Assembly: GCF_910596095.1 (NCBI RefSeq)
Contig: NC_056550.1
Coordinates: 26,589,001 to 26,653,000, forward strand
From: Thunnus maccoyii
Lineage: Eukaryota > Chordata > Actinopteri > Scombriformes > Scombridae
DNA length: 64,000 nucleotides
Direction of reading: 5' to 3'
Shown: piece after piece, positions 20,096-64,000 of the stretch
Layout: each line of letters begins with the position of its first letter
Position numbering within the stretch: the first letter of the stretch is position 1
Program-made: the position numbers and the translations under genes
Notes under the pieces: model-generated
What the model was told of the DNA's origin: nothing
The model's input: only the letters and a program-made list of their open reading frames with translations
The model's database searches: none

Positions 20096-20300
20096 AATCC
20101 AATGAGAGGACCAAAACCAGAAATGAATTGATCACACTAACAAATATTGTCCGTGTATCAAAAGCCTGATATATCTTCGTTTACTTATTCTTTTTATAAC
20201 AAATAAAACCTTGAAATATTTCCAATATCCAGAATGAACTCTGAGCTTTCGTTAGCTTGGGCCTATAGTTTAATCCAGGATGTAGTGCACTAAAAAGAAA
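20096..20300 (-). repeat. Scrap of pentraxin upstream DNA (inverted)
   Basis: The minus strand of this stretch matches sequence that lies upstream of the pentraxin copies at about 45,040, 56,260 and 62,150-62,330 (shared: GTGCACTACATCCTGGATTA, ATATTGGAAATATTTCAAGG). It is the outer end of the left inverted arm, where homology to 56,387 stops. No pentraxin exon remains here. Confidence 0.7.
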
Positions 20301-20635
20301 AATAATGTGTATAAAATATAAATAATAATATAAATATGAATGAACTGATGAATTCCCACAGCCTATTTATCAGCTGCAAATAAGTTTTTTTACAATTATG
20401 GGTTTTTTTTCAATTTTTCTCTCATTTTTATTAGTTTTTTATTAGTTCATCAGGGCGACTGTGATGTTATATAGCTATTTAGTGCATATAATGCTTCATA
20501 GTTTGGCCTGTTTATATTCAAAAAGCTTTTGGATAGGGCTTATAGATCTGTTTTTATTTTGGATTGGATTTGACAGCTGTTACCATGGAAACAATCAGTA
20601 CATCTGTCAAACCTGCTACTCAGAGCTCAGTCAAG

Positions 20636-23214
20636 ATGCCGATCACCTGCAGGATTCTATTAAACTCCATTAAGACAGAAACGGTAAGAACATACAAGTG
20701 TTGTTCATCTGTTTTATACTTGTAGCTGATGATCTGCAGGTTAGAGCATCAACAAGAAAACTTAAATCACATCACAGATAGAAAACACAGGTGCCAAACA
20801 ATGTTAGTTTACTGTAAGTTTGGTTATAAATGTTATGCTGTAAAGCATTTTGGTATTTATTTAAATTAATTGATTTGCATGTTTGTTCTGTAAATTGTAA
20901 CTGGTCCTGTTGTGATGTGGATGCACTTCTTCCTCTGCAAAAGTGAAGACTCTGTGTTATGAAAGACACTGTGGAATTAACTATTTTAATAACTATTTTG
21001 ACTGAATAGTCACACTTAAATGGTTTTTATCATTTCCACTAATGGCTATTTCTGAAATATAATGCTTACAGTTAGTTCATTTGTAAACAGCAGTTATTTT
21101 CAAAAATGCTCATCATAAAGTGAAGTATGATGCCTGTGTGCCACCTGTGTGTTGCACATGTCTGACTGGATTCTTGTTTATTAGTCTATAACTGTCTAGC
21201 TAGGGTTGACAATCACTTCTAGCAGTGTATTGTTGTAATTTTTGTTAACTTGGCTGTTTTTTGTGTCTTTATTTTATGATGATAGATGGAGGAATATGAA
21301 GCAGAGGAGAAGACAAACAGCAACAGCAAAATGAGCTCATCAGCAGAGGTGAGAACCAGAATTTTAATGAAGGCTCAAGACTAAATTGCCTGTAACCATA
21401 GCAACAGTTCTGATGCTTCAGTCTCTGTTAGCAGCTAACTGACAGGTGAAACTAATCTCACCATGAGTTAAACTGACAACAAAGACATTTGAACACACAG
21501 AGAATGATTTAAACACAGTGTCTCTTTGTTCTTTTGGTAAGTGGCCATGATGTAAAAGCCATACAGCACTCACAGGTGTTTAGTGATAGAAAACTATTGG
21601 CTTGGAAAAGGATATGCCTTCTTCACCTCGTCCATGTTTTTCATGCATCAGGAAACTTCTTCTCGTATCAGTTCCACTATTTAAAACCTTCTTACACTCC
21701 TTGTGTCTTTCTCTTTCTTTCTTTTTGCATCATAGAAACAAATAAGCAAAAACTTAGCTGGACCTCATGATGAGGGTGAGGAGAGTTTCATAGGAGGACA
21801 AATGGATCCACATCAGCGAGCCGACACTGTGGAGAAAACACGTCGCTGTGACCAGTGTAAGAAGAGCTTCTCTTCCTCAGCATATTTGAAGTATCACCAA
21901 CGTATCCACACTGGAGAAAAGCCTTACACCTGTGACCAGTGTGGTAGGAGTTTCACTCAATCTGGAAATTTAAAGAACCATCAGCGGCTCCACACTGGAG
22001 AAAAGCCTTACACCTGTGACCAGTGTGGTAGGAGTTTCACTCAACTTGGAGCTTTAAAGAACCATCAGCGCACTCACACTGGAGAAAAGCCTTTCACCTG
22101 TGACCAGTGCAGGAAGAGTTTTACTACATCTGGAAATTTAAAGAACCATCAGCGCACTCACACTGGAGAAAAACCTTTCACTTGTGACCAGTGTGGTAAG
22201 AGTTTCACTCAATCTGGAAATTTAAAGAACCATCAGCGCACTCACACTGGAGAAAAACCTTTCACTTGTGACCAGTGTCAGAAGAGGTTCTCTTCCTCAG
22301 AATATTTGAAGTATCACCAACGTATCCACACCGGAGAAAAACTTCCCACCTGTGACCAGTGTGGTAGGAGTTTCACTGTATCTGGGGCTTTACAGAGACA
22401 TCGGTGCACTCACACTGGAGAAAAGCCTTTCACCTGTGAGCAGTGTGGTAAGAGTTTCACTCAATCTGGAAATTTAAAGAACCATCAGCGCACTCACACT
22501 GGAGAAAAGCCTTTCACCTGTGACCAGTGCAGGAAGAGTTTTACTCAATCTGGACATTTAAAGACACATCAGTGCATTCACAATGGAGAAAAACCTTTCA
22601 CTTGTGACCAGTGTCAGAAGAGCTTCTCTTCCTCAAAATATTTGAAGTATCACCAACGTATCCACACTGGAGAAAAGCCTTACACCTGTGATCAGTGTGG
22701 TAGGAGTTTCACTGCATCTGGAAGTTTAAAGAACCATCAGCGCACTCACACTGGAGAAAAGCCTTACACCTGTGACCAGTGCAGGAAGAGTTTTACTCAA
22801 TCTGGACATTTAAAGACACATCAGTGCATTCACAATGGAGAAAAACCTTTCACTTGTGGCCAGTGTCAGAAGAGGTTCTCTTCCTCAAAATATTTGAAGT
22901 ATCACCAACGTATCCACACCGGAGAAAAACTTCCCACCTGTGACCAGTGTGGTAGGAGTTTCATTCTATCTGGAGATTTAAAGAGACATTGGCGCACTCA
23001 CACTGGAGAAAAGCCTTTCACCTGTGAGCAGTGTCAAAAGAGCTTCTCTTCCTCATCTAATTTGAAGTATCATCAGCGCACTCACACTGTTGTAAGGCCT
23101 TACACCTGTGAGCAGTGCGGGAAGTTACATTTGATGGGACACTTTAAAGAAACATCAGCACACTCACACTGTGTAGAGAGTGCACTTGAACTGTCTGGAT
23201 CTCTTAGCTGTTAA
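20636..23214 (+). CDS. C2H2 zinc-finger protein, ZNF-A (15 fingers, 529 aa)
   Basis: Exons 20636-20683, 21286-21348 and 21736-23214 join in phase. The last exon encodes 15 complete C2H2 fingers joined by TGEKP-type linkers, followed by a broken finger ([20 protein letters not shown]) and a short tail. The acidic N-terminus ([21 protein letters not shown]) carries no KRAB, SCAN, BTB or ZAD domain. The likely role is sequence-specific DNA binding in the nucleus; the target is unknown. The first exon may be coding ([16 protein letters not shown], in frame with the next exon) or the start may be the ATG at 21286, giving 513 aa. Contact positions repeat in a few types: QSGN, QSGH, SSKY/SSEY. Its inverted paralogue ZNF-B keeps the same exon layout but different contact residues. 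Fish have large lineage-specific families of this kind, so no orthologue name is given. Confidence 0.9.
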
Positions 23215-25207: not shown

Positions 25208-26880
25208 TTAATTCAATTCAATTCAATTCAATTTTATTTATATAGCGCCAAATCACAGCAAAAGTCATCTCATGGCACTTTTCACATAGAGCAGGTCTAG
25301 ACCGTACTCTTTCATTTACAGAGACCCAACAATTCCCCCATGAGCAGCACTTGGCGACAGCGGTAAGGAAAAACTCACCTTTAATGTGAAGAAACCTCAA
25401 GCAGAACCCGACTCTAAGTGGGCGGCCATCTGCTTTGACTAGTTGGGTTGAGAGAGAAAGAAAGAGAAGGTGGAAGGGGGGGGGGGGGCAAGGAAGCAGA
25501 ACAACAACAGCAACAATAACAATAGATACATGACTAGCAACAACAAACAGCAGCAAAAGCAGGAGAAGGACATCTCCACGGCAGAGCAGTCCCTGGGGTT
25601 TCCTGCAGATGAGAAAGCACAAAGAACTCCGGGGACGAAGTCAAGTTAGTAACATGCAGGAGAGAGGAGCTCAATGTATCATGGGAAGTCCCCCGTCAGT
25701 CTAGGCCTATAGCAGCATAACTAGTGGCTGGTCCAAGGCAAGCCTGGTCAGCCCTAACTATAAGCTTTATCAAAAAGGAAAGTTTTAAGCCTGCTCTTAA
25801 ACGTAGAGAGGGTGTCTCTGACTGAATCTGGAAGATGGTTCTACAGGAGATGAGCCTGATAGCTGAAGGCTCTGCCTCCCGTTCTAATTTTGGAGACTGT
25901 AGGAAGAACAAGTAAGCCTGCATTCTGGGAGTGCGGTGCTCGAGTGGGATAATAGGGTTCTAAGAGCTCTTTAAGATATGATGGTGCCTGACCATTAAGA
26001 GCTTTGTAGGTGAGGAGAAGGATTTTAAATTCACTTGTGGATTTTACTGGAAGCCAATGCAGCGAAGCTAAGATGGGAGAAATATGATCTCTTTTTCTGG
26101 TTTTTGTCAGCACATGTGCAGCTGCATTCTGGACCAGCTGGAGAGTCTTAAGAGGCATGTTTGGGCAGCCTGATAATAATGAATTGCAATAAGCCAGCCT
26201 AGAAGTAACAAATGCATGTACTATTTTTTCTCCATTTTTTTGGGACAGGATGTGCCTGATTTTTGCAATATTATGTAAGTGAAAAAAGGCAGTCCTTGAA
26301 ATTTGTTTTATGTGGGAGTTAAAGGACATATCCTGATCAAAAATAACTCCCAGACACAGTGGTGCTGGAGGCCAGGGTAATGCCATCTAGAGTAGCTATA
26401 TCATTAGATAATGTGTTTCTAAGGTGTTTAGGGCCAAGCACAATAACATCAGTTTTGTCTGAGTTAAGTAGCAGAAAATTGTAGGTCATCCAGGTCTTTA
26501 TATCCTTAAGGCATGCTTGGAGTTTAGTTAACTGATTGGTCTCATCTGGCTTCATTGATAAATATATTTGGGTATCATCTGCACAGCAATGAAAATCGAT
26601 GGAGTGTTTCCGAATAATATTACCTAAAGGAAGCATACACAAGGTGAATAGTATTGGTCCAAGTACAGAACCTTGTGGAACTCCGTGTCTAACTTTTGCT
26701 TTCATGGAGGATTCATCGTTAACATGTACAAACTGAAATCGATCTGATAAATAGGACTTAAACCAGCTTAATGCAGTTCCTTTAATGCCAATTAAATTAC
26801 CCAGTCTCTGTAATAGGATTTCCCATGAAATATCAGTTCGTATAAGCATGATCAACATTGTCATTGTTATGGCACTCAAT
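25208..26880 (-). mobile_element. L2/CR1-like LINE, 3' part with reverse transcriptase (degraded)
   Basis: On the minus strand the RT core is readable from 26,879: GIKGTALSWFKSYLSDR, RHGVPQGSVLGPILF and the catalytic block CADDTQIYL (usual YADD). It is followed in a second frame by LGVIFDQDMSFNSHI, FVTSRLAYCNSLLSG and HWLPVKSTSEFKILLLTYKA, the usual C-terminal part of fish L2-type elements. One frameshift lies between about 26,340 and 26,386, and a stop near 25,840 replaces the Trp expected before NHLPDSVRD. The 3' end has a non-coding tail finishing in ATTCA pentamers (25,209-25,235). The endonuclease is missing: 5' truncated. Clade from memory. Confidence 0.85.
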
Positions 26881-27529
26881 GCACATGGTTAAAGTTGGGA
26901 AAAGATTGTGGTCTTGGTTAAAGATTCCCTCCAGACATATATTAAAATATATATAAATACTCTGCTTAGGACAATTATGTGTGTCTGATGTGGTTTTTCC
27001 ACAAAAAAGAAGTACAATTATCACTTAAATCCTTAAAATGGCATCTCCTCCTTCTCCCTCATTAAAAATTCAAGAATCTACAAATATGCAAATATATTTC
27101 ATTTCAGAAGTTTAACTACTGGACACAAAATGTCTCCTACTTCACTGAAAAGTCCATTATGTGCACTTAAGTTTCCACATCACACTTGTGTAAGTTGAAT
27201 GTTGGACCAGGATTGACTTCCAAACTCGTTAAGTCACAAATCATGCTTATAAGCCCGCCCCTTAAAAATCTGATTTTCAATGAGCACAGATAAACTTTCC
27301 ACTTTTAGCAGATGAATATGAAAACAGCCTTCAAGTGTTAACCTCTGCACATACATCAATCTGCACAGTCACTTTCAAACATCCAATTGTAGGAACAAGA
27401 GGAAAAACAGATTTTTGAGTGGAGGGGAAGTGACGAAAACCAGAGCATGTCTTTGACTCGTAAAAATATTGCCACTGAACATAATCCAAGCAACAATTAT
27501 GTTTTTTTTTTTTTATATTCCACAGTACC
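26881..27529. other. Intergenic, no gene seen
   Basis: AT-rich spacer between the LINE and a zinc-finger-gene scrap. No supported feature. Confidence 0.45.
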
Positions 27530-28152
27530 TCTCTGTGGTACACTGAGAAGAAGTTGCAGCTTTTAGTAAAGATGCACATTATGCATATTTATGTACATTA
27601 CTATACCACTGTCTTTGCACTACACTCACTCCCACCACTGCCTCAAGTAAGTTTTACATAACTTGCATTACATTCATTTTGCACATATTGTAAAAAAAAA
27701 AAAAAACAAAAACAAAAAAAAGCTGTGTGTTTGTGTGTATAGTTATAGTTTTTAATTTATTTAATTACTTCTTTTAGTGTTCCATTTATATACTTTATTG
27801 CCAATTTCAATGTTTTATTCTATTCTAATTTAAAATATTTTAGTATTTGCTCATACATTTTCTGTGTGTGTAGCGAGGAGTATGCTACAGCTGCATTTCA
27901 TTGTACCATCCTATGTTGTATAATAAAACTGAACCTTGAAATGGTTTTTAGTTTGGGAATCAAACCCCCAACCCTGCCAGTGGTGATGCCTTGTTCTTCA
28001 GTGAGCTTAGCAAGTGTGTAAAGCAAAACTATCACAACTCAAGTTATTGGAGTGTTATTGACATATTTTCATAACAAGTTTTACAAATCACAGTCATCTT
28101 TTAACTGCTAAAAGATCCAGACAGTTCAAGTGCACTCTCTACACAGTGTAGT
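27530..28152 (-). pseudogene. 3' scrap of a ZNF gene (module of pentraxin 1)
   Basis: Inverse copy of the ZNF 3' flank: the CCAGTGGTGATGCCTTG block, the GGTTTTTAGTTTGGGAATCA block and the last codons of the ZNF reading frame (minus strand ...GTAGAGAGTGCACTTGAACTG). Only about 14 codons plus the flank remain; all fingers are gone. Best match is to 41,690-42,420 and 52,800-53,460. Confidence 0.75.
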
Positions 28153-30125: not shown

Positions 30126-30137
30126 TCCAGCCTAAGT

Positions 30138-30880
30138 ACCTGTATCCTAGCAATGATCTCCCTCTTACAGTAAAAACCCTGAACACAAATAACATATCTA
30201 CATTACACAGAAAAATGTGCTCAACTAAAACTGAACAAACTACTGTTGGGTTTACATAAACTAAACATTTCACAGGCTCTATAATACCTGTATCCTAGCA
30301 ATGATCTCCCTCTTACAGTACACACCCTGAACAGAAATAACATCATCTACATTACACAGAAAAATGCGCTTAACCAAAACTGAACAAACTACTGTTGGGT
30401 TTACATAAACTAAACATTTCACAGGCTCTATAATACCTGTATCCTAGCAATGATCTCCCTCTTACAGTACACACCCTGAACAGAAATAACATCATCTACA
30501 TTACACAGAAAAATGCAGTTAACCAAAACTGAACAAACTACTGTTGGGTTTACATAAACTAAACATTTCACAGGCTCTATAATACCTGTATCCTAGCAAT
30601 GATCTCCCTCTTACAGTACACACCCTGAACAGAAATAACATCATCTACATTACACAGAAAAATGCAGTTAACCAAAACTGAACAAACTACTGTTGGGTTT
30701 ACATAAACTAAACATTTCACAGGCTCTATAATACCTGTATCCTAGCAATGATCTCCCTCTTACAGTACACACCCTGAACACAAGTAACATCATCTACATT
30801 ACACAGTAAAATGCAGTTAACCAAAACTGAACAAACTACTGTGGTGGTTGCACATAAACTAAACATTTCATGGGACTTAT
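30138..30880. repeat. Tandem repeat, five copies of a 149-bp unit
   Basis: Units begin with ACCTGTATCCTAGCAATGAT at 30,138, 30,286, 30,435, 30,584 and 30,733 (spacings 148, 149, 149, 149). The inner copies are almost identical; the outer ones are more diverged. No open frame. Confidence 0.95.
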
Positions 30881-31944: not shown

Positions 31945-32333
31945 ACTTTCATTCTGGATTTTGGAAATATTTTAAGGTTTTATTTATTATAATAAGAAGA
32001 TCTCATTGGATTTGTAGACAACAGGAAAAATATGGAAAATCATTGATTTGCCCTTTAAAAGGCTGCAAATTAAGCAGTGGGCAGCAGTGTTTGCTATCAA
32101 TAAGAATAACAATCAGCTGCATGTGGACCGAAGAGTTCTAGAGAAGTCCTGTTCATATTTGCTTAGTTCAGTTTGGCTGCCCTCTTAACACGGATGAGAT
32201 CAAAACTGTCACAACAGTCAAATGCAATCAAACATGCAAGTAATTCTCAAGAAATTCCATAACACAAACAAGGAATAGTCAAGTGATGCTGTTACCAGTA
32301 TTTTGTAATGAGGAGGAGTTTGGGAAGTCAGGC

Positions 32334-32555: not shown

Positions 32556-35500
32556 ATGAAATTTTCAGGCATTCTTTTTCTTGTTGCCATCTCCACGATG
32601 TTGGCAGGTATTTGTCTACTTTTCTTTTGTGTCTTAATGTGCATATCTGTACATACATGGAAAATATAAATGTAATGGTTTGTTTGCGAATTTAAAAGTC
32701 AATGAACTGAATGACTGAAACTAAACGATAATTTGATTTACAGAAAATTAATCAGCAACTATTTTAATAGTTGATTAATCATTTAAGTCATTTTTCAAGC
32801 AAAAATGATCTGGTTGCAGCTTCTGAAATGTTAATAGTTACTAGTTTCCTTTGTCTCTTATGATGGTGAACTAAGTAGCATTGGATTTTGGACTTTTAGT
32901 TGGATGGAACAGGACATCACTACGCACTCTGAGAACTTATAATAGACTTTTTTTTCTATTTTCTGTCATCCTATAGACAAAACAATAAGTTAATTTCCAA
33001 AACAAATTAAACATGAAAAATGAATTTTAGTTGCATGCCTAAAACTGAATTTAGGTGCATTTAAATGCCACTACGTCCCTGAAAATGACTTTGTAATTTG
33101 TTAGTTAAATTAAAGTGTAAAATGCATAACAAGTCTTCATGCTCCTTGTAATTATACAATATGGCATGAACATATGAAACACACTGAGATAAAAGAATAT
33201 GTACACAGAGGAAGGAGGAAATAAAAGCAGGTAAATCTGTGGATACATAACATGTATGTCTGCAGGGAGCGAGCAACAGATTTCCCTTCAGCAATTATTG
33301 TAATAACGCAACTGATTATTGTATTTTCTAAAAATATTTATGGAGTAATGTCCTGGCAATATAGAACAAAGTGAAGAAGGGAGAAGGTGATAACATAATT
33401 GATATTACAAATTAATAGCACTACGTACTGTATAATTATGAAAATTTTATGATTTAAATTGCAAAAGTACTATACAATGATGTGTCCAAGGAGAAACTCA
33501 AAGATGAATTTCATGAGCTCTATTGTAGAGTTTAGATATTGGGTCAATATGTTCTGAGGTGGTAAGAGACCAAATTGGGAGACAGTTGGACATTTTTTTA
33601 ATTATAACGGCATGAAGATACGTATTAGAAACAAAGTGTAAGATATGGCCTGATCTGACTGTATAGATATATTTTCTTATTCAAATGTGTGGTGGGTGTT
33701 GAGATAAACACCAAGGTATTTAAAATTCTTAGTAAGGCTCTGGTTGGCCAGAACTATGGGACGAGACATAGACAAGGGAAATACATACATCAATTCTTCT
33801 TTTTTTTTTACATTTACAGTTCAGTTCAGTTGTCACATCAGTGTTTGGATTGGAAAACTAAATATAATCAATTGGTTTTCACAGAAGCCTTTACTACTTT
33901 TGAATTACAACTGACTTAAGTTGGTCGGCTGTAGCCATTTTATTGTATTTTAATTTATCGACCTCCTGGTCCAGCAGGTCAGTTTTTATCTGAGTTTACT
34001 GACTTTCTGACTTGCATTATTAAGCTGGACAAAGTGTATTAGTTGGTGATTTAATGTGCACATCAATGATTCCACTAATTGTGTAGCCACTGAATTCCTT
34101 AATATTATTGAATCTTTTAATGTCAAGCAACATATTTCCAGTGCCACTCACATGGGTGGGGACCTTGCACTCTGGCCTGTCGGGATCAGATCATTTCACT
34201 TTTTAAAAATGAGGGATATTTCTTACAAGTGTGGTGTGCGTTTATTTTGAAAGTTTGATTGACATGTGTACTGTCAGGTGTGTAGAGACAATAAGTAACT
34301 GCAGCTGGACACAGAAAAATACTCATATATTTGAATGGAGAGTGTGAGCGAACCCACACCTTTTTGAACATTTACTGCTTCCACATAGTTTTAGATACAG
34401 ACTACATTTGAACTTTCAATGAGTCATGAGACTTTTACCTACAAATCTTGAATTTACATGTTTTTTCTATCTTTTATTATTTTTGAGATATTAGAGTGTG
34501 AGTTTGAAAGTCTTTTCTTGCTCCTCCTGTGATTTTATAATGAGTGTGTATTGCGGAATGTTTCACAGCACTGAGGGAGTGACATCACCAGGAGCAGCTG
34601 GAGAGGAGGATATTAGAGTACGCTTCTTGTGAAATCTCCTCATAAATCCCATGACTTTGGCCAAATCTTACATTAAAAATCATTTTATAGTTGGAAATTT
34701 CATGGGGAATCCATTGATACAGGTTTGGAAGTGGTCAGACTTATAGTTTAGATGTCAGAAGCCTCTGTTTGACACAAAGTTCATGCCCATAGATTGCCTC
34801 CCCATTGTTTTACATTGTAAGGGTGATGTGGCACTGCAACTTTCAGGGCTTGTAAAATCCAAACCGTTCGAGTTATTACAAAGTTTTAACAACTATTTTC
34901 AGCACAGTGTCATAAGTCACCTATTACACTTTGAAGCCGATACAATTAATGCCCTAGGAGGAGATAATGTTTGTTCGGGGGCCAAAGTTGGGGCAAAGTC
35001 TTATTTTGAAAGGCTAATTGCAGACTTCCTGTTGGATTTAGGTCAGGGGTGTCAGCATATGATTTGTAGGTATACGGCACGAATAATTGAGTTTTGGTTT
35101 GATCTCTCCACGACATTCCTACGGGCCGTGCCGGCCATTTTAATTGCATAGGTGGTGCTAGAGAGCACATTTTGGAACTTAAGGGGTTATATTTTACATT
35201 TTATCAAATGTTTCACCAGACCTGCTGTGTGTGCCAAATTTGGTGAGTTTTTGAGCATATTTAGGAGGTCAATTTTAGTGTTTAAGAGGCATAATAATAA
35301 AGAAAGAAAGAAAGAAAGAAAGAAAGAAACAAACAAACAAACAAACACACGAAAAACAATAGGGTCCTCGCCCTAAGCTGCCTTTCGGCCCCTAATAAAT
35401 TTCTGTCTTTCATATTTAAAAGCGTTTTCCAATTATATTTTTTTCATTGTTGTTGAAAGCTCATTGGAACTCTGTTCTTTGTACATTTTCCTAATAAAAT

Positions 35501-37454: not shown

Positions 37455-37721
37455 AACTTATGCATTCAATGGCTGTTATGGTGGAATATATTTCATGATA
37501 ATGTCAAACTAAGACTGCATCAGTACTCACTTAACATATACAAAACCAGAGTAGTTATTCCATGTTTGCATGTATTGCATACACCAAATCATTTTTGGCT
37601 CAGATTTTTCTAATTGATGATATGACATTAAAGGACAGGTTCACAATCTTTCAAGGCTGTCTTAAAACAACAGTCAAATGCCCAAATGAACATTGAAAGA
37701 GGTTTTTCTTGAAAGTTGCTC

Positions 37722-37982
37722 CGTTTGCTCATCTGAGTCACTGGGGAAGAAGTCCTTCTGTCCTCTGACTGGGATCTTGTGACTCCTGATGGAATAAAAG
37801 AAAAACAAACAAAAAAAGACATCAGCACTTAGCTCCAGGCATGTGATATTTGGTGTTTTTATCACCAGACAAAGGCAAAGCATGTAAATATTGACTGAAG
37901 GGTCTGGACAATATAAATGTAAAACATAATTTGAATTGAGCTTCTTAGAGTTGATGTAGAGGTGGTCGTTGTTACAGTTTAA
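37722..37982 (-). pseudogene. tsen54: tsen54 exon 2 and intron 1 fragment, copy 1
   Basis: The minus strand reads [19 protein letters not shown], nearly identical to residues of tsen54 exon 2 ([19 protein letters not shown]). It continues into tsen54 intron 1 (GACATCAGCACTTAG, GCAAAGCATGTAAATATTG, GTAGAGGTGGTCGT). The exon's first ~30 bases (ELFAARA region) are deleted, and the acceptor is joined directly to TCAGGAGTCAC. The intron is kept, so this came from DNA, not from mRNA. Confidence 0.88.
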
Positions 37983-38540
37983 GTCTGTTCAGCAGACAGA
38001 GGACGTCCGGGAAAGGCTGCTACCCAAGGTGCTGCTAACATTTGCTCAGCTTGTTTCTCTGATAACTTAAGATCTAGATTTCTGATGAATAAAATCCTTC
38101 ATCTGGTTAAAAGATATAGTTAAAATGGCCAAGATCTAAAAGGTTTATCATAAAAATGTGGCTTAAAACTGAATAAAAGTCAATTTATGACAGTTTCTGG
38201 TTGACAACCACAACGCTGATGTGTTATTTTGTGGGTGTATATTCTTTGGTAGAGGAAAACACCATTGTAGAGGAAAACCACAACGCCAAAACATGCATCT
38301 TATGTGTGTATACTCTTTGGTAGAGGGGGTATGACACCATTGGCAGGCGACCAAAACGTTACCCTGATAAAATTACATGTTTCTCTGCGCATGAAAGTGG
38401 TTGGAAACATTTGGGATAATGTACGTACACAACTCAACAAAACATACAACATCGGTCTAGTCATTTTTAGCCAACAGTGTGAGTGATATAATATCTAAAA
38501 TATTAACGTGAAGGACCCTGTGAATAATGGATTAGTAGAT

Positions 38541-42508: not shown

Positions 42509-42509
42509 T

Positions 42510-45520: not shown

Positions 45521-45735
45521 ACCCTCCGTTCAGATTTTCTGTAGCAGGGTCCTCACAGCGGCACAGTATGTATACAGCTTCATTCTACTTTTATATCTTT
45601 ATGTATTCTTTCCTACATATCAAAACTACTGACAGTGGTCAAATGCAGCATTTAACCCAGAATTACAAGACGCATGAACATATGTGCAATGACTTAAGTA
45701 AATTCTCTCATTTTCTGCAGGTTTACTTGGACAAA

Positions 45736-48700: not shown

Positions 48701-50036
48701 GATGAAATCTGTAAGAAATATGTGTTAAATCCCTCCAGGATTTCAGCATTTTTGTGATTATAGCAGCCAAAAATGCTCAATTTTGCAGTGTTTTTTCTCA
48801 AAAATTCTGATACAGTTTGCACTGTTTTATGTGTTTTTGTGTTAAAATTGCAGAAATTTGGAAAAATTGCAAGCAAAGGAAAGTAACTTGATTTTATTTT
48901 TTTACCAATGAGGAGTCATATGTAATCACTTCCTTAGATGAGAAGCATACTGCATATCACAGAAACAACTTTATTTCAATGCTAATTTTTAGATTTATTT
49001 TCTGAACATGAGATCCTGAATAAAATACTATACCTGACTTTCATTTATAAGCCTTTATTAAATTAACTTTCACCTCAACATTAGCAACAAATAAGATCAG
49101 TCAATAATGCCATTGAAATAAATCCATTAACATAAAAATATAGTTTAATTTAAAGGGCCCATTTCTATGTTTTAGGTAGATTAGGTCCATCTTTCCTGTC
49201 TGAACAACCTGTCAACTTTTGTTCTTCTGACCAATTGAATGCAAAACTCTTTGGGAACATTTGGGAATTGTTTTGCTTGGTCTATGGCATCAGTTTTGTT
49301 GGCAGGTGAGATTTGTCCATCTTTCACCTGAACATGCAAGTAAGTTACCACCACACCAAATGCGACAAATCCTCCAAATCACAAGCGGTCTGTTCATTTG
49401 GAAATTTCATGCGGAAAAGTTCTAGTAATTTAGCAAAATTGCAAGCTCTCGCAAATGTTGCAGAGATTTCTTGAATTTGTGTTAATTATTGTGATCACAA
49501 AATCACAATTTCCTTTAGGGACTGACTCACATGTACCAAGCTCTTTTTTTTGATGACATATTTTAATTTTGTAATGTTAGACCGCTGACAAATGAAATGT
49601 ATATGTGTGTGTGTTTAGATTGTCCCTGTACCTGAGAACATCGGCAGGTTCAGAAGCTGTTCACTTCCAAGTCCCTCAGCTTGGTGCGCTTGAGACCCAC
49701 CTTTGCATCACCTGGGATTCCAGTTCAGGTGCTGCTGCCCTCTTCCTGGATGGGAGGAAAAGCCTGACTAAAATCTACAAGAAGGGTCACAGAGTGCAGT
49801 CTGGAGGCAGGGTTATCCTCGGACAAGATCTGGACAGTTATGAGGGTTCTTTTGATGCCAAACAGAGTTTTGTCGGGGAGATCAGTGATGTTAATATGTG
49901 GGACTCTGTCCTCCCAGACAGCACCATCCAAGACATGTCCTCTGGGAAGAGAGTACCAAGAGGAAACGTTTTTGACTGGGAAGCTACACCGCTTAAAATT
50001 CATGGGGGGGCAAAGGTCCTTAATCGTGAACTGTAG
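45736..50036 (+). CDS. Secreted short pentraxin, CRP/SAP-like, copy 2 (225 aa)
   Basis: Exons 45736-45787, 48311-48518 and 49619-50036; each has exactly the size of its copy 1 counterpart (52, 208, 418), all in phase. Signal peptide MKFSGVLFLVAISTMLAG; signature HLCITWDS; both conserved disulfide cysteines are present; the Ca-binding block reads GQDLDSYEGSFDAKQ. It differs from copy 1 at few positions: FPTETNTDY instead of FPTKTCTDY, SPLKS for NPLKS, RTPDAD for RTTNAD, YEG for YRG and TPLKIHG for TRLEIHG. Role as for copy 1: secreted calcium-dependent pattern-recognition lectin by family. Intron 1 carries the same LINE scrap and E1 element, so the duplication is younger than both insertions. 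Confidence 0.93.
46770..47025 (+). mobile_element. L2-like LINE endonuclease scrap in pentraxin 2 intron 1
   Basis: Paralogous to 33,940-34,156, with the same truncation points; slightly more diverged from a coding frame. Confidence 0.55.
47026..48186 (+). mobile_element. Element E1, copy in pentraxin 2 intron 1
   Basis: Same ends and position as the copy at 34,157-35,398, but about 60 bases are missing near 47,085. Non-coding. Confidence 0.75.
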
Positions 50037-50534: not shown

Positions 50535-50870
50535 CGTTTGCTCATCTGAGTCACTGGGGAAGAAGTCCTTCTGTGACTCCTGATGGAATAAAAGAAAAAC
50601 AAACAAAAAAAAGACATCAGCACTTAGCTCCAGGCATGTGATGTTTGGTGTTTTTTTCACCAGACAAAGGCAAAGCATGTAAATATTGACTGAAGGGTCT
50701 GGACAAGATATATGTAAAACATAATTTGAATTGAGCTTCTTAGAGTTGATGTAGAGGTGGTCGTTGTTACAGTTCAAGTCTGCCACAAACAGTTAAAAAG
50801 GAAAACTACTGTACTTTTCAAACTTATAATAGAGCTTGCAACAAGACAATCAGATGTTACATCCAGATTT
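50535..50870 (-). pseudogene. tsen54: tsen54 exon 2 and intron 1 fragment, copy 2
   Basis: Paralogue of 37,722-37,982 at the same place after pentraxin 2. It keeps more of intron 1 (GAGCTTGCAACAAG, ATCCAGATTT... to about 50,870) but has lost part of the exon (CTGTCCTCTGACTGGGATC is gone). Non-functional. Confidence 0.85.
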
Positions 50871-52480: not shown

Positions 52481-52496
52481 GAAGCTGATAGCTGAA

Positions 52497-55400
52497 AGTT
52501 CCAGTGTTGTGTGACGAGGTGAAGTTCTAGTTGATCCGAGCAGAGACACGCTCAAAATCTGCAGTCAGTGGCTGCAGCATTGGCGGCACATTGTTGTAGA
52601 AACCTTCAGTATGTTCATGATATATATACATTGACATTCTTTAAGTAATTTGACATTTGAAGAAAATCTGGAAAATGTCAATCAATCTATAATGGGGAAT
52701 GTATTCAATTAATCTCTAATAATGATTGTGGCACACCATAGCTGCATACAGTCTACAATATGCCAGAATATTCCACAGTTCTTCTCTGTGGGATTGATCA
52801 CAGCTCCTTTACAAAGAGCAGAAGTTGCAGCTTTAAGTAGAAATGCACATCATGCACATTTATGCACATGTCTTTACCATACCATTGTCTTTGCACTTCA
52901 CTCACTCCCACTATTCCCTCATTAAGTTTTTTTGCACCACGACTTGCATATTACATTGATTTTGTAGATGTGTGTATATAGTTATAGTTTTACCTTTTTT
53001 TAAATGTTTTCTTTTAGTGCTAAGTTTATACACTTTGTTCGAGTTTATTGCCAATTTTAACATTTTATTCTATTCTAATTTAAAATATTTTAGTATTTGT
53101 TCATCCATTTTCTGTGTGTGTAGCAAGGAGTGTAATCCTGTATTGTATAATGACAATAAAATTGAACCCAAAACCTCGAAATGGTCTTTAGTTTGGGAAT
53201 CAAACCTCCAACCCTGCCAGTGGTGATGCCTTGCTCCTCAGTGAGTTTTGTACTCTGTGTACTGTGTGTTTGTGTAACTCTGGTGTATTTGCTGCTGTAG
53301 CTTTGACAGCAGGAGTAAAACAACAATAAAATTTCACACCTCAAGTTGCATGCATGTGAATATTATTGAAACATTTTCATGACAAGTTTTACAAATCACG
53401 TGTCATCTTTTAACATACAAGGGATCCAGACAGTTCAAGTGCACTCTCTACACAGTGTGAGTGTGCTGATGTTTCTTTAAAGTGTCCCATCAAATGTAAC
53501 TTCCTGCACTGCTCACAGCTGGGAGGCTTTTCTCCAGTGTGAGTGCGCTGATGTCTCTTTAAATTTCCAAATAGAGTGAAACTCCTACCACACTGCTCAC
53601 AGAGGTACAGTTTTTCTCCAGTGTGAGTGCACTGATGTCTCTTTAAATGTCCAGATAGAGTGAAACTCCTACCACACTGGTTACAGAGGTATAGTTTTTC
53701 TCCAGTGTGAGTGCGCCAGTGTCTCTTTAAATCTTCAGGTTGAGTGAAACTCCTACCACACTGGTCACATCTGTAAGGCTTTTCTCCAGTGTGAGTGCGT
53801 CGATGTCTCTTTAAATTTCCAAGTTGAGTGAAACTCCTACCACACTGGTCACAGGTGTAAGGCTTTTCTCCAGTGTGAGTGCGCCAGTGCCTCTTTAAAT
53901 CTTCAGGTTGAGTGAAACTCCTACCACACTGGTCACATCTGTAAGGCTTTTCTCCAGTGTGAGTGCGTCGATGTCTCTTTAAATTTCCAAGTTGAGTGAA
54001 ACTCCTACCACACTGGTCACAGGTGTAAGGCTTTTCTCCAGTGTGAGTGAGCCGATGTCCCTTTAAATGTCCAAGTTGAGTGAAACTCCTACCACACTGG
54101 TCACAGGTGTAAGGCTTTTCTCCAGTGTGAGTGAGCCGATGTCCCTTTAAATGTCCAAGTTGAGTGAAACTCCTACCACACTGGTCACATCTGTAAGGCT
54201 TTTCTCCAGTGTGAGTGAGCCGATGTCCCTTTAAATGTCCAAGTTGAGTGAAACTCCTACCACACTGGTCACAGGTGTAAGGCTTTTCTCCAGTGTGAGT
54301 GCGCCGATGTCTCTTTAAATCTCCAGGATGAGTGAAACTCCTACCACACTGGTCACAGGTGAAAGGTTTTTCTCCAGTGTGGATACGTTGGTGATACTTC
54401 AAATATGCTGAGGAAGAGAAGCTCTTCTGACACTGGTCACAGCGATGTGTTTTCTCCACAGTGTCGGCTCGCTGATGTGGATCCATTTGTCCTCCTATGA
54501 AACTCTCCTCACCCTCATCATGAGGTCCAGCTAAGCTTTTGCTTGTTTGTTTCTATTATGCAAAAAGAAAGAAAGAGAAAGACACAAGGAGTGTAAGAAA
54601 GTATTAAATAGTGGAACTGATACAAGAAAAAGTTTCCTGAGACATGAAAAACATGGACGAGGTGAAGAAGGCATTTCCTTTTTCAAGCCAACAGTTTTCT
54701 ATTACTAAACACCTGTGAGTGCTGTATGGCTCTTACATCATGGCCACTTACCAAAAGAACAAAGAGACACTGTGTTTAAATCATTCTCTGTATGTTCAAA
54801 TGTGTTTGTTGTCAGTTTAACTCATGGTGAGATTAGTTTCACCTGTCAGTTAGCTGCTAACAGAGACTGAAGCATCAGAACTGTTGCTATGGTTACAGGC
54901 AATTTAGTCTTGAGCCTTCATTTAAAAGAGTGACCAGAACTAAATACATACACATTTTTAGAGACCCTTTCCAAATGAAATCAGTGTTGTATAATGTCAC
55001 TGATACATGTAGCATGTTTCTTGTCCCACCAACATTTCTCAGGTGTGTTGTCTGGTTCTCACCTCTGCTGATGAGCTCATTTTACTGCTGTTTGTCTTCT
55101 CCTCTGCTTCATATTCTTCCATCTATCATCATAAAATAAAGACACAAAAAACAGCCAAGTTGACAAAAATTACAACAATACACTGCTAGAAGTGATTGTC
55201 AACCCTAGCTAGACAGTTATAGACTTATAAACAAGAATCCAGTCAGACATGTGCAACACACAGGTGGCACACAGGCATCATACTTCACTTTATGATGAGC
55301 ATTTTTGAAAATACTTGCTGTTTACAAATGAACTAACTGTAAGCATTATATTTCAGAAATAGCCATTAGTGGAAATGATAAAACCATTGAAGTATGACTA

Positions 55401-56387
55401 TACAGTCAAAATAGTTAATTCCGCAGTGTCTTTCATAACACAGAGTCTTCACTTTTGCAGAGGAAGAAGTGCATCCACTTCACAACAGGACCAGTTACAA
55501 TTTACAGAACAAACATACAAATCAGTTCATTTAAATAAATACCAAAATGCTTTACAGCATAACATTTATAACCAAACTTACAGTAAACTAACATTGTTTG
55601 GTACCTGTGTTTTCTATCTGTGATGTGATTTAAGTTTTCTTATTGATGTTCTAACTTGCAGATCATCAGCTACAAGTATAAAACAGATGAACGCTTGTAT
55701 GTTCTTACCGTTTCTGTCTTAATGGAGTTTAATAGAATCCTGCAGGTGATCGGCATCTTGACTGAGCTCTGAGTTGCAGGTTTGACAGATGTACTGATTG
55801 TTTCCATGGTAACAGCTGTCAAATCCAATCCAAAATAAAAACAGATCTATAAGCCCTATCCAAAAGCTTTTTGAATATAAACAGGCCAAACTATGAGGCA
55901 TTATATGCACTAAATAGCTATATAACATCACAGTCGCCCTGATCAACTAATAAAAAACTAATGAATGAATCATTCTCATAAATGAGAGCAAAAAAAACAG
56001 AATTGTAAAAAAACAAAAAACACTGTTATTTGCAGCTGACAAACAGGATAATTAGGCTATGAGAATTAATCAGTTTGTGCTTCAAGACTTGCAATTTAAA
56101 CACAAAAGAACATTTACTCAAGTATTGTAAGCCTACTCTACTTTACTTGCGTAGTTTCATTTTATTCTACTTTATAGGCCTACATCTACTCAATGTCAGA
56201 GGGAAATTTTGTTCTTTTTTGTGCACTACATCGTGCATTAAACTATAGGCCTAGGCTAACGAAAGCTCAGGGTTTTATTTATTATTAAAAAAAAGAAGTA
56301 AAAGAAGATATATCAGGCTTTTGAAACACAGACAATATTTGTTAGCCGGATCAATTCATTTTTGGTTTTGGTCTTCTTATTGGATTT
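52497..56387. repeat. Right arm of the ~4 kb inverted duplication
   Basis: Inverse match of 20,096-24,539. Contains the ZNF 3' flank, ZNF-B and the upstream DNA that leads into a pentraxin promoter region. It lacks the tsen54-intron-like insert of the left arm. Confidence 0.85.
53410..55756 (-). CDS. C2H2 zinc-finger protein, ZNF-B (11 fingers, 416 aa)
   Basis: Exons 55709-55756, 55063-55122 and 53410-54552, in phase, with the same splice positions as ZNF-A. The N-terminus is [20 protein letters not shown] (one residue shorter than in A), preceded in frame by [16 protein letters not shown] if the first exon is coding. Eleven complete C2H2 fingers with TGEKP linkers, then the same broken last finger ([20 protein letters not shown]). 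The DNA-contact positions differ from ZNF-A: three consecutive fingers carry QLGHLKGH, and a two-finger unit (QLGNLKRH + QPEDLKRH) is repeated. This points to recent internal duplication of fingers. Nuclear DNA-binding protein by family; no effector domain is seen; target unknown. Confidence 0.9.
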
Positions 56388-56690
56388 ATAGACATTTTGC
56401 CCTTTAAAAGGCTGCAAATTAACCAATTTGCTCCGGTCTTTTGTGCCCCCTGATATTTACTTTCAACAAGAACCTCATTCATCTGGATGTGGATCGAAGA
56501 TGTCCAGAGAAGAACTGTTCACCATAAGTGGACTTCATGTGTTTAGTTTTGTTTTTAGTTCAGTTTGTCTGCCCTTTAAACATTGATTAGATCAAATCTT
56601 GTCTAAACAGTCAGATTATGTCTCAATCCATTACATATCAGAAGCAAGGAACAGGAAAGAGATGCTGTGATCAGTATTTTGTTTTTTAAC
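56250..56690 (+). promoter_or_regulatory. Orphan pentraxin upstream region
   Basis: Matches the DNA upstream of pentraxins 2 and 3 (CTTTAAAAGGCTGCAAATTA, ATCAAATCTTGTCTAAACAGTCA) up to GATCAGTATTTTG, some 35 bases before the TATA box, where an unrelated sequence starts at 56,685. The gene it once served is gone. Confidence 0.75.
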
Positions 56691-58737: not shown

Positions 58738-58851
58738 ACTGAATATAAACAGGCCAAACTATGTAGCACTATATGCACTAAATAGCTATATAATATCACA
58801 GTTGCCCTGACAAAACAAATAAAAATGAGAGAAAAAAAAAACAGAATTGGA
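58738..58851 (-). pseudogene. Scrap of the ZNF 5' flank (last module)
   Basis: Matches 55,870-56,015 in the same orientation (AATATAAACAGGCCAAACTA, GCACTAAATAGCTATATAA). The ZNF gene that should lie to its left is missing. Confidence 0.75.
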
Positions 58852-60055
58852 ATTAAAGCTGAAAGCAGCATTTTTCGGGACCTCGCACTCTGGCCCATCG
58901 GGATCAGATCATTTTGCTTTTTAAAAATGGGGGGTATTTCTTACAATTATGGTGTGCTTTTATTTTGAAATTTTGATTGACATGTGTACTGTCAGGTGTG
59001 TAGAGACAATAAGTAACTGCAGCTGGACAGAAAAATACTCATATATTTGAATGGAGAGTGTGAGCGAACCCACATCTTTTTGAACATTTACTGCTTCCAC
59101 ATAGTTTTAGATACAGACTTCATTTGAACTTTAAATGAGTCACGAGACTTTTACCTACAAATCTTGAATTTACATGTTTTTTCTATGTTTTACTGTTTTT
59201 GAGATATTAGAATGTGAGTTTGAAAGTCTTTTCTTGCTCCTCCTGTGATTTTATAATGAGTGTGTATTACGGAATGTTTCACAGCACTGAGGGAGTGACA
59301 TCACCAGGAGCAGTTGAAGAGGAGGATTCTAAGACACTTCTTGTGAAATCTCCTCATAAATCCCATGACTTTGGCCAAATCTTATATTAAAAATCATATT
59401 TTAGTAGGAAATTTTATGGGGAATCCATTGATAGAGGTTTGAAAGTGGTCAGACTTATAGTTAGTCAAACGTCAGAAGCCTCTGTTTGACACAAAGTTCA
59501 TGCCTCCCCTTTGTTTTACATTGTAAGGGTGATGTGGCACTGCAACTTTCAGGGCTTATAAAATCCAGACTGTTCAACGACTGTTTTTTCAGCACAGTGT
59601 CATAAGTCATCTATTAAAGTTTGAAGCCGATACCATTAATGCCCTCGGAGGAGATAGCGTTTGTTCAGCGGCCAATATTTGGGGCAAAGTCTTATTTTGA
59701 AAGGCTAATTACAGACTTCCTGTTGGATTTAGGTCAGGGGTGTCAGCATATGATTTGTAGGTCTTGATGAGATGAATAATTGAGTTTTGGTTTGATCTCT
59801 CTATGACATTTCTATGGGCCGTGGTGGCCATTTTAGTTACATAGGTGGCGCTAGAGAGAACATTTTGGCACCAGACCTGGTGTGCATGCCAAATTTGGTG
59901 AGTTTTTGACCATGTTTACGGGGTCAAATTTAGGGTTTAAGTGGCGTAATAATAAAGAAAGAAACAAACAAACACACGAAAAACAATAGGGTCCTCGTCT
60001 AAGGGCAAGGACCCTATTGTTTTTTACAGTAGTCCTCTGCCTTTTGGGCTCGGTC
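58852..60055 (-). mobile_element. Element E1, independent insertion with readable ends
   Basis: Inserted in the ZNF 5' flank: CAGAATTG precedes it and TTATTTGCAGCTGATAAACA follows, while the right arm (56,010) has these joined by only a short A-run. Ends: AATTAAAGCTGAAAGCAGC at left, CTTTTGGGCTCGGTCCCC at right. A near-perfect hairpin (AACAATAGGGTCCTC / AGGACCCTATTGTT) lies at 59,982-60,022. Non-coding, class unknown. Confidence 0.75.
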
Positions 60056-60209
60056 CCCAAAAAACTTATTTGCAGCTGATAAACAGGATAATTAGGCTGT
60101 GGGAATTCATCAGTTCATGCTTCAAGACATGCAAATTAAACACAAGAGAACATTTCCTTAAGTATTGTAAGCCTACTTTATTCTGAGGAACTTTACTTGA
60201 GTATTTTTA

Positions 60210-62090
60210 GGGCCTGAGCCCCAAAGGAGCGAAGACCCTCTTGTATCAGTTCTGTTTCTTTCTTTCTTTATTAATCCGCCACTTCAACCCTAAATTTGAC
60301 CCCCTAAACATGCGCAAAAACTCACCAAATTTGGCAAGCACATCAGGTCTGGTGAAAGATTTGATTAAATGTAAAAATTATCCCCAAAGTGCCAAAATGT
60401 GCTCTATAGCGCCACCTATGTCACTAAAATGGCTGCCACAGCCCGTAGGAATGTTGTAGAGAGATTGAAACAAAACTCAATTATTCATCTCATCAAGACC
60501 TACAAATCATATGCTGATACCCCTGACCTAAATCCAACAGGAAGTCCACAATTCACCCATGAAAGTATGACTTTGTGCCAATTTTGGACATGGAATAAAC
60601 TCTATCTCCTCCTAGGGCGTTAATGGTATTGGCTTCAAACTTTAATACATGACTTATCACACTGTGCTGAACAAAAGTTATTAAAAACTTTGTAATAACT
60701 CGAACGGTTTAGATTTCGTAAGCCCCAAAAGTTGGAGTGCCACATCACACCTTACAATGTAAACCAATGAGGAGGCAATCTCTGGGCATGGACTTTGTGC
60801 CAAACTGGGGCGTCTGACGTCTAAACTATAAGTCTGACCACTTTCAAACCTGTATCAATGGATTCGCAATGAAAATTCCTACTAAAATATGATTTTGAAT
60901 GTAAGATTTGGCCATAGTCATGGGATTTATGAAGATATTTCCACTAGAAGACTGCCCTGAAATCCTTCTCTCCAGCTGAGAGGGAGAAGGAGGGAAGAAA
61001 GTGGGGGGATGGGTGTCATGGTTAAATGGAGCTCATTTTTGAAGGATACAGCAGAAAGGTCTATATACATACAGTACATTATATACAAACTTTGTATGAA
61101 GTTTGGTGTTATTATCATTTATTTTACAATGAAAATGGAGAAAATGGAAAAAATGGAGTGAGAGTGACAGTTTAGTGATAAAGTGCTGCAGAAAAATAAA
61201 ATCGAAACTAAAATTTGTAGCTCTGTACTGCAGTTTTTCCTTTATTAGGGCCCAAGCACCTAGCGGTTGGCTCACACTCTCCATTCAAATATAGGAGCAT
61301 TTTTCTGTGTCCAGCTGCAGTTACTTATTGTCTCTACACACCTGACAGCAGTGTTCAATGCTTACTTTTTTGTCAAGGAGTACATGTGTCATGTTATCAT
61401 TTTTGGCGATTGCCGATATATGCACATATTTTTTCCCACTTGGCTGAGGAAACTATTACACATACAAGCATAGATTGTACTAAGTATGATCAAAAAAGAC
61501 AATATATGAGGGAAGAACTCAGGAAGACTGGAGTTCCGGAGATCAGCATTAAGACTTTAATGAACCTGCCAAGTGGGTGGAGTGGCAGTTTTTGGGGGGG
61601 TTTTTTGAGTTTATTAGACAGACAGGATTGATGTGTAGGATTTAATATTTGGTCCACAGTCCGAAGCGGAGCGGTAATGTGCCTAATATGCTATAATTAA
61701 GCTATCATTGAAGCGTGTGGCTGTGGCGTGGCGTTGAGTTTTGATGTTTCGCCATGACAGAGGAAACTGCTATAACTTTAGTGCAAATGCTCCAATCTGC
61801 ACCAAACTTTGCATGTTTGAGTCCCGGCCTGAACACGTCCTCATGACAATATTCAGTCAGTGATGCAAACTGGCTGAATAGCGCCCCCTACGAAATTGCA
61901 GCAAAGCAGCCGCAGCAGCGGGCAAAATAGTGGACAAAGGAAGTGATGTTTATCTCCTTGCACTGTCTGAAAACAGCCCAGGTCTGAAGACATCTACATG
62001 CCTGTGACAGAAGCCCTTCGACTGCGCCACGGCCCGACGTGCATAAAGGTGCAAAGGCCCGTTCAACGCCGCTTGCAGCTTTAATTATTT
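60210..62090 (+). mobile_element. Element E1, second insertion in opposite orientation
   Basis: Starts GGGCCTGAGCCCCAAAGG and ends GCTTGCAGCTTTAAT, the inverse of the ends of the previous copy. 60,240-60,960 is the inverse of 34,800-35,300 (GGAAGTCCACAATTC, GCGCCACCTATG). An inner boundary near 61,250 (GGGCCCAAGCACCTAG) suggests a second related element nested or in tandem. The flanking DNA is contiguous in the right arm at about 56,150. Confidence 0.65.
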
Positions 62091-62591
62091 TATGCTACTG
62101 TATAGGACTACACCTACTCAATTTCAGATTGAAATTCTGTTCTTTTCAGTGCACTACATCCTGGATTAAACTATAGGCCTAGGCTACCGGAAGCTCACGG
62201 TTCATTCTGGATATTGGAAATATTTCAAGGTTTTATTTATTATATCTTCTTTTAGTTCTTTTTATATCAATCTTTTGATACACAGACAGTATTTTTTAGC
62301 AGGATCAATTTATTTTTGGTTTGGTCTTCTCATTGGATTTGTAGACATTCTTTTGTGCCCTTTGATATTTGCTTTCAACAAGAACCGTATTCATCTGGAC
62401 GTGGATGTAAGATGTCCGGAGAAGACCTGTTCACCATACCTGGACTTTGTGTGTTTGCCTGCCCTCTAAACATTAATTAGATAAAATCTTGTCTAAACAG
62501 TCAAACAGATTTTGTCTCAAGCCATTTCATAACACAAACAAGGAACAGTAAATAGATGTTGTTAGGCTGTTATCAGCTTGGGCGGTCAGGC

Positions 62592-62598: not shown

Positions 62599-62813
62599 AC
62601 CCTCTGTTCAGATTTTCTGCAGCAGGGTCTTCACAGCGGCACAGTATGTATACAGCTTCATTCTGCTTTTATATCTTTATGTATTCTTTTCTATGCATCA
62701 GAACTACTGACAGTGGTGAAACACTGCATATAACTCAAAATTACAAGATGCATGAACATATGTGCAGTGAACTGAGTAAATTCTCTCATTTTCTGCAGTT
62801 TTGCTCGGACAAA

Positions 62814-63899
62814 ATGAGATTTTCATGCGTTCTTTTTCTCATTGCCATCTCCATGGAGTTGGCAGGTATTTGTCTACTTTTCTAGTGTCTTAATGTGCAT
62901 ATCTGTATATGCACGGTATAAATGTAATAGTTTGTTTGCAAATTTAAAAGTGAATGAATTAACTGACTGAAACTAATCGATAAATTGATCAACAGAAAAT
63001 GAATCAGCAATTGTTTTAATAGTTGATTAATCGTTTAATTTTCTGATATATTTATTATATATACACAGTAAATATGTAAATAGGGATGAAATAACAGCTG
63101 GCTGAAATGGAAAGAAGAAGAAAACCTAATTCTGTTGGTAGACAAGGTAATACTGAGACTTTAGTACCACATTAAAAAGCAGTGAAGATACTTGGAAAAT
63201 GATTGCAAACAAAATGAACGCAGGCTTTTGTGGCATCAATGAATTTTTGTGTTACTTGTGTTGCTGGCAAATAAAAGCAGTGTTACATCCAAACAAATGT
63301 TCAAATTAAATTCAAACAATAGACTAACAATACTTTACTCTGAATACATATACAGTATTTCATTACTGATTACATTTTGTACAGTAATTCCTTAACATAT
63401 CTCAGAAAGTTTGCTCACCTCTGTCTCTGTACACTTCTGAAGCTCCCTTAATAATATGTCTAAGTTATAAGAATTTGTTTCAATTAGAAGGTTTGCAAGT
63501 GTATATATGAAGAGAGTGTAAGTGATGGATTTTCATTTTTACTTTTAGGGTCCAGAATCCATACTTAAACAGTGTATTTGTAGTTTATTGACATACTCTC
63601 ATATTTCTACACATTTGCCGATTGGATGTTTTTTATGGTTAAAAGCTCTTTGGAACTTTCGTTAATAAAATCTCTGTTTCTTGTCTTTCAGTGAGTGTTA
63701 CCATTAAGACCGTGGTATTCCCCACAGAGACGGATACTGATTATGTTGAGTTGATCGCTCGTTAACCTCTGGACTTGGCGGCATTCACTCTGTGCATGCG
63801 TGTTGCCACAGAGCTCAGTTGCAAGCGTGAGGTCATCCTCTTTGCTTATCGGACTCCAAACGCTGATGAGCTGAATGTATGGCGTGAACAAGACGGCAG
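62814..63899 (+). pseudogene. Pentraxin copy 3, probable pseudogene (exons 1-2 in window)
   Basis: Exon 1 (62814-62865) encodes MRFSCVLFLIAISMELAG; exon 2 (63692-63899) has the expected 208 bases and intact splice sites. The frame reads VSVTIKTVVFPTETDTDYVE and then hits TAA at 63763-63765, where copies 1 and 2 have Lys (ELNPLKS/ELSPLKS). After the stop the frame continues as PLDLAAFTLCMRVATELS. Intron 1 is only 826 bases because the LINE and E1 insertions are absent. Exon 3 would lie right of the window. The upstream GA-rich promoter block is also missing, so loss of function is likely. Confidence 0.85.
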
Positions 63900-64000
63900 G
63901 TAGACACTTTGAGCTCCACACTTTGTGAAATCCACTTAAGATTAAAGCTCTGACTAAACTCTAAATAATTGACATGTTGACACATCACTTTAAAGCCCAA

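Follow-up and report, generated by a model that had tools for sequence, protein, structure and literature searches.

An old array of divergent zinc-finger and pentraxin genes in Thunnus maccoyii, in which decay and single-gene copying probably account for modules with one gene each

Copying between members is a well-known property of tandemly arrayed genes. In fish, the short pentraxins of the CRP/SAP type are found in local groups: the zebrafish genes form a cluster of seven copies on chromosome 24, and the coding exons number three in most salmon CRP/SAP genes and in spotted gar CRP and two in zebrafish (PMC5446266, in the portions drawn on here). Fish genomes also hold a large family of zinc-finger (ZNF) genes, the FiNZ-ZNFs, many members of which are under positive selection (PMC10547256, in part). 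This report discusses a stretch of 64,000 nucleotides from contig NC_056550.1 of Thunnus maccoyii, called the window hereafter, in which C2H2 zinc-finger genes and CRP/SAP-type pentraxin genes occupy an array of five modules, and focuses on the question of why no module retains both genes.

The locus resembles the fish CRP/SAP clusters in its locally duplicated short pentraxins with three coding exons, as in salmon and gar, in the HxCxTWxS signature and in the two cysteines, and it differs from zebrafish, where the coding exons are two instead of three. Among the CRP/SAP neighbours named in the Fig. 4 legend of the same source, IKZF1 is the only zinc-finger partner, and neither tsen54 nor a 5-HT3-type receptor is given there (PMC5446266, in the portions drawn on here). 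The zinc-finger genes, compared by exon structure only, are like the large and fast-evolving FiNZ-ZNF family in having a short N-terminal coding part ahead of a single exon that carries the finger array, whereas a single FiNZ exon, encoding a domain of 28 amino acids, precedes the fingers there and two short exons do so here (PMC10547256, in part). As in vertebrate tandemly arrayed genes, where local duplicates make up a large share of gene duplications, the copies are neighbours, but the repeated unit here consists of two unrelated genes in divergent orientation (PMC2547482, in the sections used). Searches of one library of open-access papers found no description of a head-to-head ZNF-pentraxin pair, and a term search in the main text of two zebrafish CRP papers (PMC7912335 and PMC6336239) gave no mention of chromosome or zinc. 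The set looks like an ordinary, decaying gene cluster of a known kind, that is, birth and death with exchange between the copies of a local array.

The reading preferred here, with a probability of about 0.75, is that an old array of a divergent ZNF-pentraxin unit, subject to decay and to copying of one gene at a time, explains the single-gene modules without any incompatibility of the two genes. In the ancestral unit a C2H2 zinc-finger gene and a CRP/SAP-type pentraxin gene would have been transcribed divergently, their start codons about 1.1 kb apart, and this two-gene unit would have multiplied locally into at least five units, one of which is now inverted. The multiplication would have taken place long ago, because the intervals between the genes now differ by 13-30%. 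Later the units would have decayed through deletion and repeat insertion, and tracts carrying one gene would have been copied between units, namely a ZNF-A/ZNF-B tract bounded near 20429 and 23657 and a pentraxin 1/pentraxin 2 tract that extends from about 32.3-32.8 to 38.2 kb. The gene that is intact in each unit would thus reflect the last single-gene tract copied or spared there. The copying may have been gene conversion as opposed to partial duplication or replacement, the events would have followed one another in this order, and no selection against the pair would have been at work.

All the data come from this one window of a single genome, and the genes are predicted genes, their models being derived from the sequence alone. 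The window was compared all-against-all with itself at a threshold of E 1e-10 and a length of at least 120 bases, the five intergenic regions were subjected to a more sensitive comparison, and the intervals were also put into a multiple alignment. Three CRP/SAP-type pentraxin genes lie in the window, two of them complete and one interrupted by a stop, together with two C2H2 zinc-finger genes that are both complete (Table 1), so that, writing Z for an intact zinc-finger gene and P for an intact pentraxin gene, the states of modules 1-5 are Z, P, P, Z and none. Both genes are found together in 0 of the 5 modules within the window, and in module 5 neither is intact as far as the window reaches. 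The first-pass annotation had recognised five modules with traces of both genes, and this inventory largely stands: module 1 has a piece of the pentraxin-upstream interval beside ZNF-A with its complete frame, modules 2 and 3 have a ZNF 3' scrap beside a pentraxin gene with a complete frame of 225 amino acids, and module 4 has ZNF-B beside an orphan pentraxin upstream region with no detectable pentraxin exon. Only module 5 has to be described differently; the stop in pentraxin 3 is real, and the supposed ZNF scrap is non-coding 5' flank in two pieces without any ZNF exon, so that this module is left with no intact gene. As no module holds both genes, the modules without a partner gene would have lost it, and truncated duplication may account for some of the scraps instead.

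Each of the five modules retains a recognisable trace of the interval that separates the two genes, oriented as expected, although only a part of it is left in module 2. On one side it leads into the pentraxin promoter region (modules 2, 3 and 5), on the other it borders the ZNF 5' flank (modules 1 and 4); in module 4 it breaks off just before the position of the TATA motif, and in module 1 earlier still. Module 5 is collinear with module 4 from 55872 into the interval across two insertions, one of which, a copy of the repeat called T below (58877-59997), separates the two flank pieces, and so the order of ZNF 5' flank, interval and pentraxin is preserved there, with the ZNF side and the pentraxin side both flanking the interval. 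The distance from start codon to start codon is about 1.1 kb when the module 4 stretch 55807-56682 and the module 3 stretch 45490-45736 are added. Because the interval is continuous with the pentraxin side and with the ZNF side, and in module 5 with both, an ancestral head-to-head ZNF-pentraxin pair across an interval of about 1 kb, as the first-pass annotation had proposed, is well supported by the arrangement of the sequence. The inner flank piece of module 5 and a 32-base match to ZNF intron 1 in module 3 strengthen this ancestor and leave the odds on intolerance between the genes unchanged. The 32-base match sits where a head-to-head ZNF gene would be expected and may serve as a weak lead. 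A caveat concerns 56115-56231, the site of the second module 5 insertion, which has 74% matches elsewhere (41190-41308 and 18704-18795); this stretch, which separates the ZNF flank from the interval in both module 4 and module 5, is perhaps a small dispersed repeat in its own right.

The distances between the modules, and the places where these distances change, were observed directly. Over two interval blocks, twelve pairwise comparisons of modules gave divergences of 13.1% to 29.5%. Between ZNF-A and ZNF-B 20 of the 778 sites that span exon 1 to exon 2 are different (2.6%), and pentraxins 1 and 2 differ at 26/1074 sites in intron 2, 9/477 in the 3' flank, 8/208 in exon 2, 8/161 at the start of intron 1 and 21/288 from the TATA motif to exon 1. 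Modules 2 and 3 show differences at 38/208 sites in the part of the interval next to the pentraxin, as against the above value for intron 2 (Fisher 6.5e-16). In steps of 200 bases from about 32.5 to 38.1 kb, with 33.5-34.25 kb left out, the two pentraxin regions are 93.5-99.5% alike except for two steps at 87 and 89%. The ZNF-A/ZNF-B comparison has a change point at 20429, with 56 of 308 sites different to its left and 22 of 912 to its right, and none of 1000 shuffles was as strong. At the other end of the tract ZNF-A changes its partner at 23657: the informative sites that group it with the module 3 scrap over ZNF-B are 12 of 56 before this position and 24 of 30 beyond it (0/1000 shuffles). 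The insertion of a repeat called S, common to ZNF-A and the module 3 scrap with the same left junction and absent from ZNF-B, agrees with this switch. A single recent tandem duplication of 13 kb was considered for modules 2 and 3 and rejected, because their ZNF scraps are 11-13% apart (23/204 and 24/186) and the pentraxins only 2-7%. These comparisons indicate that each of the recently copied tracts carries one gene and ends in or near the interval, and the four intact genes look like two recently copied pairs.

Several observations weigh against this reading. The boundary of the pentraxin 1/pentraxin 2 tract is graded, with 77, 81.5, 91.5 and 96.5% likeness in successive steps of 200 bases, its automatic change point falls at 32781, within intron 1 and outside the interval, and the two steps at 87 and 89% lie inside the block. 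Between promoter and intron 1 the divergence is lower than in the interval also when pentraxin 3 is compared (modules 2 and 5, 25.0% to 10.8%, P 0.001; modules 3 and 5, 24.3% to 15.5%, P 0.055), and the pentraxin 3/pentraxin 2 control likewise gives a change point, with 2 of 1000 shuffles as strong. As the pentraxin 3 comparisons drop in the same stretch, constraint explains part of the gradient. In addition, the intervals are not uniformly old, since modules 4 and 5 differ by 13.1% on the pentraxin side and modules 1 and 3 by 13.8% on the other side, and the ZNF flank of module 5 is only 8-10% away from ZNF-A and ZNF-B; the intervals are a mosaic. The finger-bearing block of the ZNF genes is about 87% alike, with 15 fingers against 11, and does not have the appearance of having been copied recently as a whole; this value is expected of fast-changing finger arrays and equally of an incomplete tract. 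Furthermore, the compared lengths are short.

The first-pass annotation had stated that never more than one gene per module survives and had suggested that the pair might not be tolerated together, for example because of promoter competition. The absence of a two-gene module is confirmed, and its special meaning is not: with fixed margins of two of five ZNF genes and two of five pentraxin genes intact, the probability of no overlap is 0.30, and it is 0.38 for four of ten slots intact. Even these probabilities assume independent survivals, an assumption which fails for copied genes; the intact genes form two recently copied pairs and therefore represent fewer than four independent survivals. 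The lack of any two-gene module is close to the expectation from chance together with the copying of single genes. It is accordingly very improbable that the genes cannot coexist, in the sense that their promoters compete, or that the pentraxin is silenced by the zinc-finger protein or by the transcription of its gene, and that selection removed one gene of each pair. The series of states without a single unit holding both genes would fit such an incompatibility, as would the short interval and a pentraxin TATA motif no more than about 1 kb away from the ZNF start codon, but the 30% chance and the two copied pairs speak against it, module 5 with neither gene apparently intact is not what intolerance predicts, and the ancestral pair must presumably have lasted long enough to multiply. 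The chance is just as small that the divergent interval was both the site of competition and the boundary of copying, an incompatible pair being repeatedly resolved into single-gene modules.

A less remote, though still unlikely, explanation is that the scraps mark where partial duplications ended, so that some modules never held both genes and loss is unnecessary for modules 1, 2, 3 or 4. The intervals of modules 1 and 4 do break off at unlike positions before reaching the pentraxin TATA motif, and in modules 2 and 3 the ZNF 3' scrap could equally be the tail of the unit to its left. Yet the collinear order of module 5 requires that at least one unit once spanned both sides, module 3 keeps its ZNF intron 1 match to the left of the interval, and at least one complete pair must be ancestral in any case. 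It is also highly doubtful that the common pieces are unrelated dispersed repeats or an artefact of the assembly. Repeats are indeed abundant in the window, among them a reverse-transcriptase element, copies of S and T and small intronic elements, and the 74% matches of the flank-interval stretch of module 4 mentioned above may be of this nature, but in the all-against-all as well as in the sensitive comparison the interval proper occurs within the window only beside these genes and in consistent orientation, which speaks against the concern, raised in the first-pass annotation itself, that the scraps might be unrelated repeats. Moreover, with differences of 13-30% between modules, the array can hardly stem from uncollapsed haplotypes.

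Table 1. Positions of the genes, gene scraps and interval pieces in the window
Feature	Module	Positions	Strand	Remarks
ZNF-A	1	exons 20585-20683, 21286-21348, 21736-23214	+	complete three-exon frame, 546 amino acids, 15 C2H2 fingers
ZNF-B	4	exons 55709-55807, 55063-55122, 53410-54552	-	complete three-exon frame, 433 amino acids, 11 C2H2 fingers
ZNF 3' scrap	2	27515-28149	-	last 51 coding bases and 3' flank
ZNF 3' scrap	3	41318-42509	-	degenerate last finger, C-terminus, 3' flank; repeat insertion common with ZNF-A
ZNF intron 1 match	3	44947-44978	-	30/32 bases, E 2e-7 (search of region), about 60 bases left of interval
Pentraxin 1	2	coding sequence 32556-32607, 35521-35728, 36806-37223	+	complete frame, three coding exons, 225 amino acids
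Pentraxin 2	3	coding sequence 45736-45787, 48311-48518, 49619-50036	+	complete frame, three coding exons, 225 amino acids
Pentraxin 3	5	exon 1 62814-62865, exon 2 63692-63899	+	one in-frame stop in exon 2
Interval, truncated	1	20092-20302	-	85% to 45037-45185, 82% to 62140-62343, 76% to 56209-56390; no pentraxin exon found
Interval	2	31948-32330	+	internal gap relative to module 3; reaches pentraxin 1 TATA motif
Interval	3	45037-45510	+	upstream of pentraxin 2 TATA motif
Interval	4	56209-56682	+	adjoins ZNF-B 5' flank; no pentraxin exon found
Interval	5	62087-62588	+	upstream of pentraxin 3 TATA motif
ZNF 5' flank, inner piece	5	58740-58825	-	90% to ZNF-B 55872-55956, starting 65 bases upstream of ZNF-B start codon
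ZNF 5' flank, outer piece	5	60058-60207	-	matches 56014-56157
Insertion inside interval, about 1.9 kb	5	60208-62086		inverted repeat T copy inside; flanks match 56157 and 56159 of module 4

ZNF-A and ZNF-B match PF00096/PF13465 and have tandem C2H2 fingers with TGEKP-type linkers within one exon, which is preceded by two short N-terminal coding exons. Between exon 1 and the finger exon the likeness of the two genes is 94-99% in each step of 150 bases, as compared with about 87% in the finger block with its 15 and 11 fingers, and the finger arrays seem to be changing faster than the rest of the gene. Probes of ZNF exon 1 and exon 2 had no match in the window except ZNF-A and ZNF-B themselves, and those of ZNF intron 1 and of the stretch before the fingers gave only short further matches of 32, 53 and 88 bases. 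The ZNF 3' scraps start inside the C-terminus in module 2 and inside a degenerate last finger in module 3. A part of the module 3 scrap is repeated at 43243-43778; beside this scrap lies a local duplication of about 430 bases (42485-42917 and 43365-43778, 88%), which repeats part of the scrap end.

The introns of pentraxins 1 and 2 have GT/AG borders, and the Pfam family Pentaxin (PF00354) is matched by exon 3 of pentraxin 1 (4.1e-34) and exon 2 of pentraxin 2 (6.6e-9). The top PDB match of pentraxin 2 exon 3 is "C-reactive protein", 4pbo/4pbp (6e-36), both of which we take to be zebrafish proteins. The products are short single-domain proteins of 225 amino acids with a signal peptide-like N-terminus, MKFSG[IV]LFLVAISTMLA, and with the signature HxCx[ST]WxS in the forms HLCVTWDS and HLCITWDS. 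The position of exon 3 of pentraxin 3 would fall past the end of the window. A conserved TATA motif, TATAAAAA, precedes pentraxins 1, 2 and 3 at 32331, 45511 and 62589, respectively, and the stretch downstream of the interval is likely to consist of the pentraxin promoter region, followed by an untranslated 5' exon and a splice acceptor that immediately precedes the start codon. The coding sequences of pentraxins 1 and 2 show 7.0 differences in 159.5 synonymous sites and 13.0 in 515.5 nonsynonymous sites, which is compatible with constraint and with its absence alike. A tblastn search of the window revealed no pentraxin exon beyond those of the three genes, the remaining matches having E values of 1.6 or worse.

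Some candidate remnants are probably repeats. The stretches 58877-59997 and 60230-61348 match pentraxin intron 1 and might pass for its remains, but they match it in opposite orientations and have an AAAG/AAAC tail in or near the end, and the window comparison lists no similar sequence in intron 1 of pentraxin 3; by these features they look like copies of one interspersed repeat, T. Repeat T, with its AAAG/AAAC tail, occurs in both orientations at 34271-35332, 47089-48154 and the two places just named. Likewise 18343-18794 is not ZNF 3' flank and is instead a copy of repeat S, which interrupts the flank of ZNF-A relative to that of ZNF-B. A reverse-transcriptase element is present at 26340-26888 (Pfam RVT_1), and a 149-base tandem repeat (30137-30870, 4.9 copies, 97% matches) lies between the ZNF scrap of module 2 and pentraxin 1. 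Rfam gave 0 matches in the whole window at gathering scores.

To the left of the array there are exons of a Cys-loop receptor on the minus strand (6873-8639; Pfam Neur_chan_LBD and Neur_chan_memb), presumably similar to the 5-HT3-type receptor, and a tsen54 exon, also on the minus strand (17670-17894; PDB match tRNA-splicing endonuclease subunit Sen54, 3.7e-10). Fragments of the tsen54 region, 75-76% similar and on the same strand, are found past the 3' ends of pentraxins 1 and 2 (37718-37987 and 50584-50856), so it seems that the duplicated pentraxin unit carried along a piece of tsen54.

The array would illustrate on a small scale how an old local duplication becomes a patchwork, in which single-gene tracts would have been refreshed more recently than the DNA between them. 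It also calls for caution when "reciprocal loss" is read from module counts, because copied genes are non-independent survivals. If strict exclusion should prove true in related fish over many modules, such arrays would allow one to test in a natural setting whether the promoters of neighbouring genes interfere with each other.

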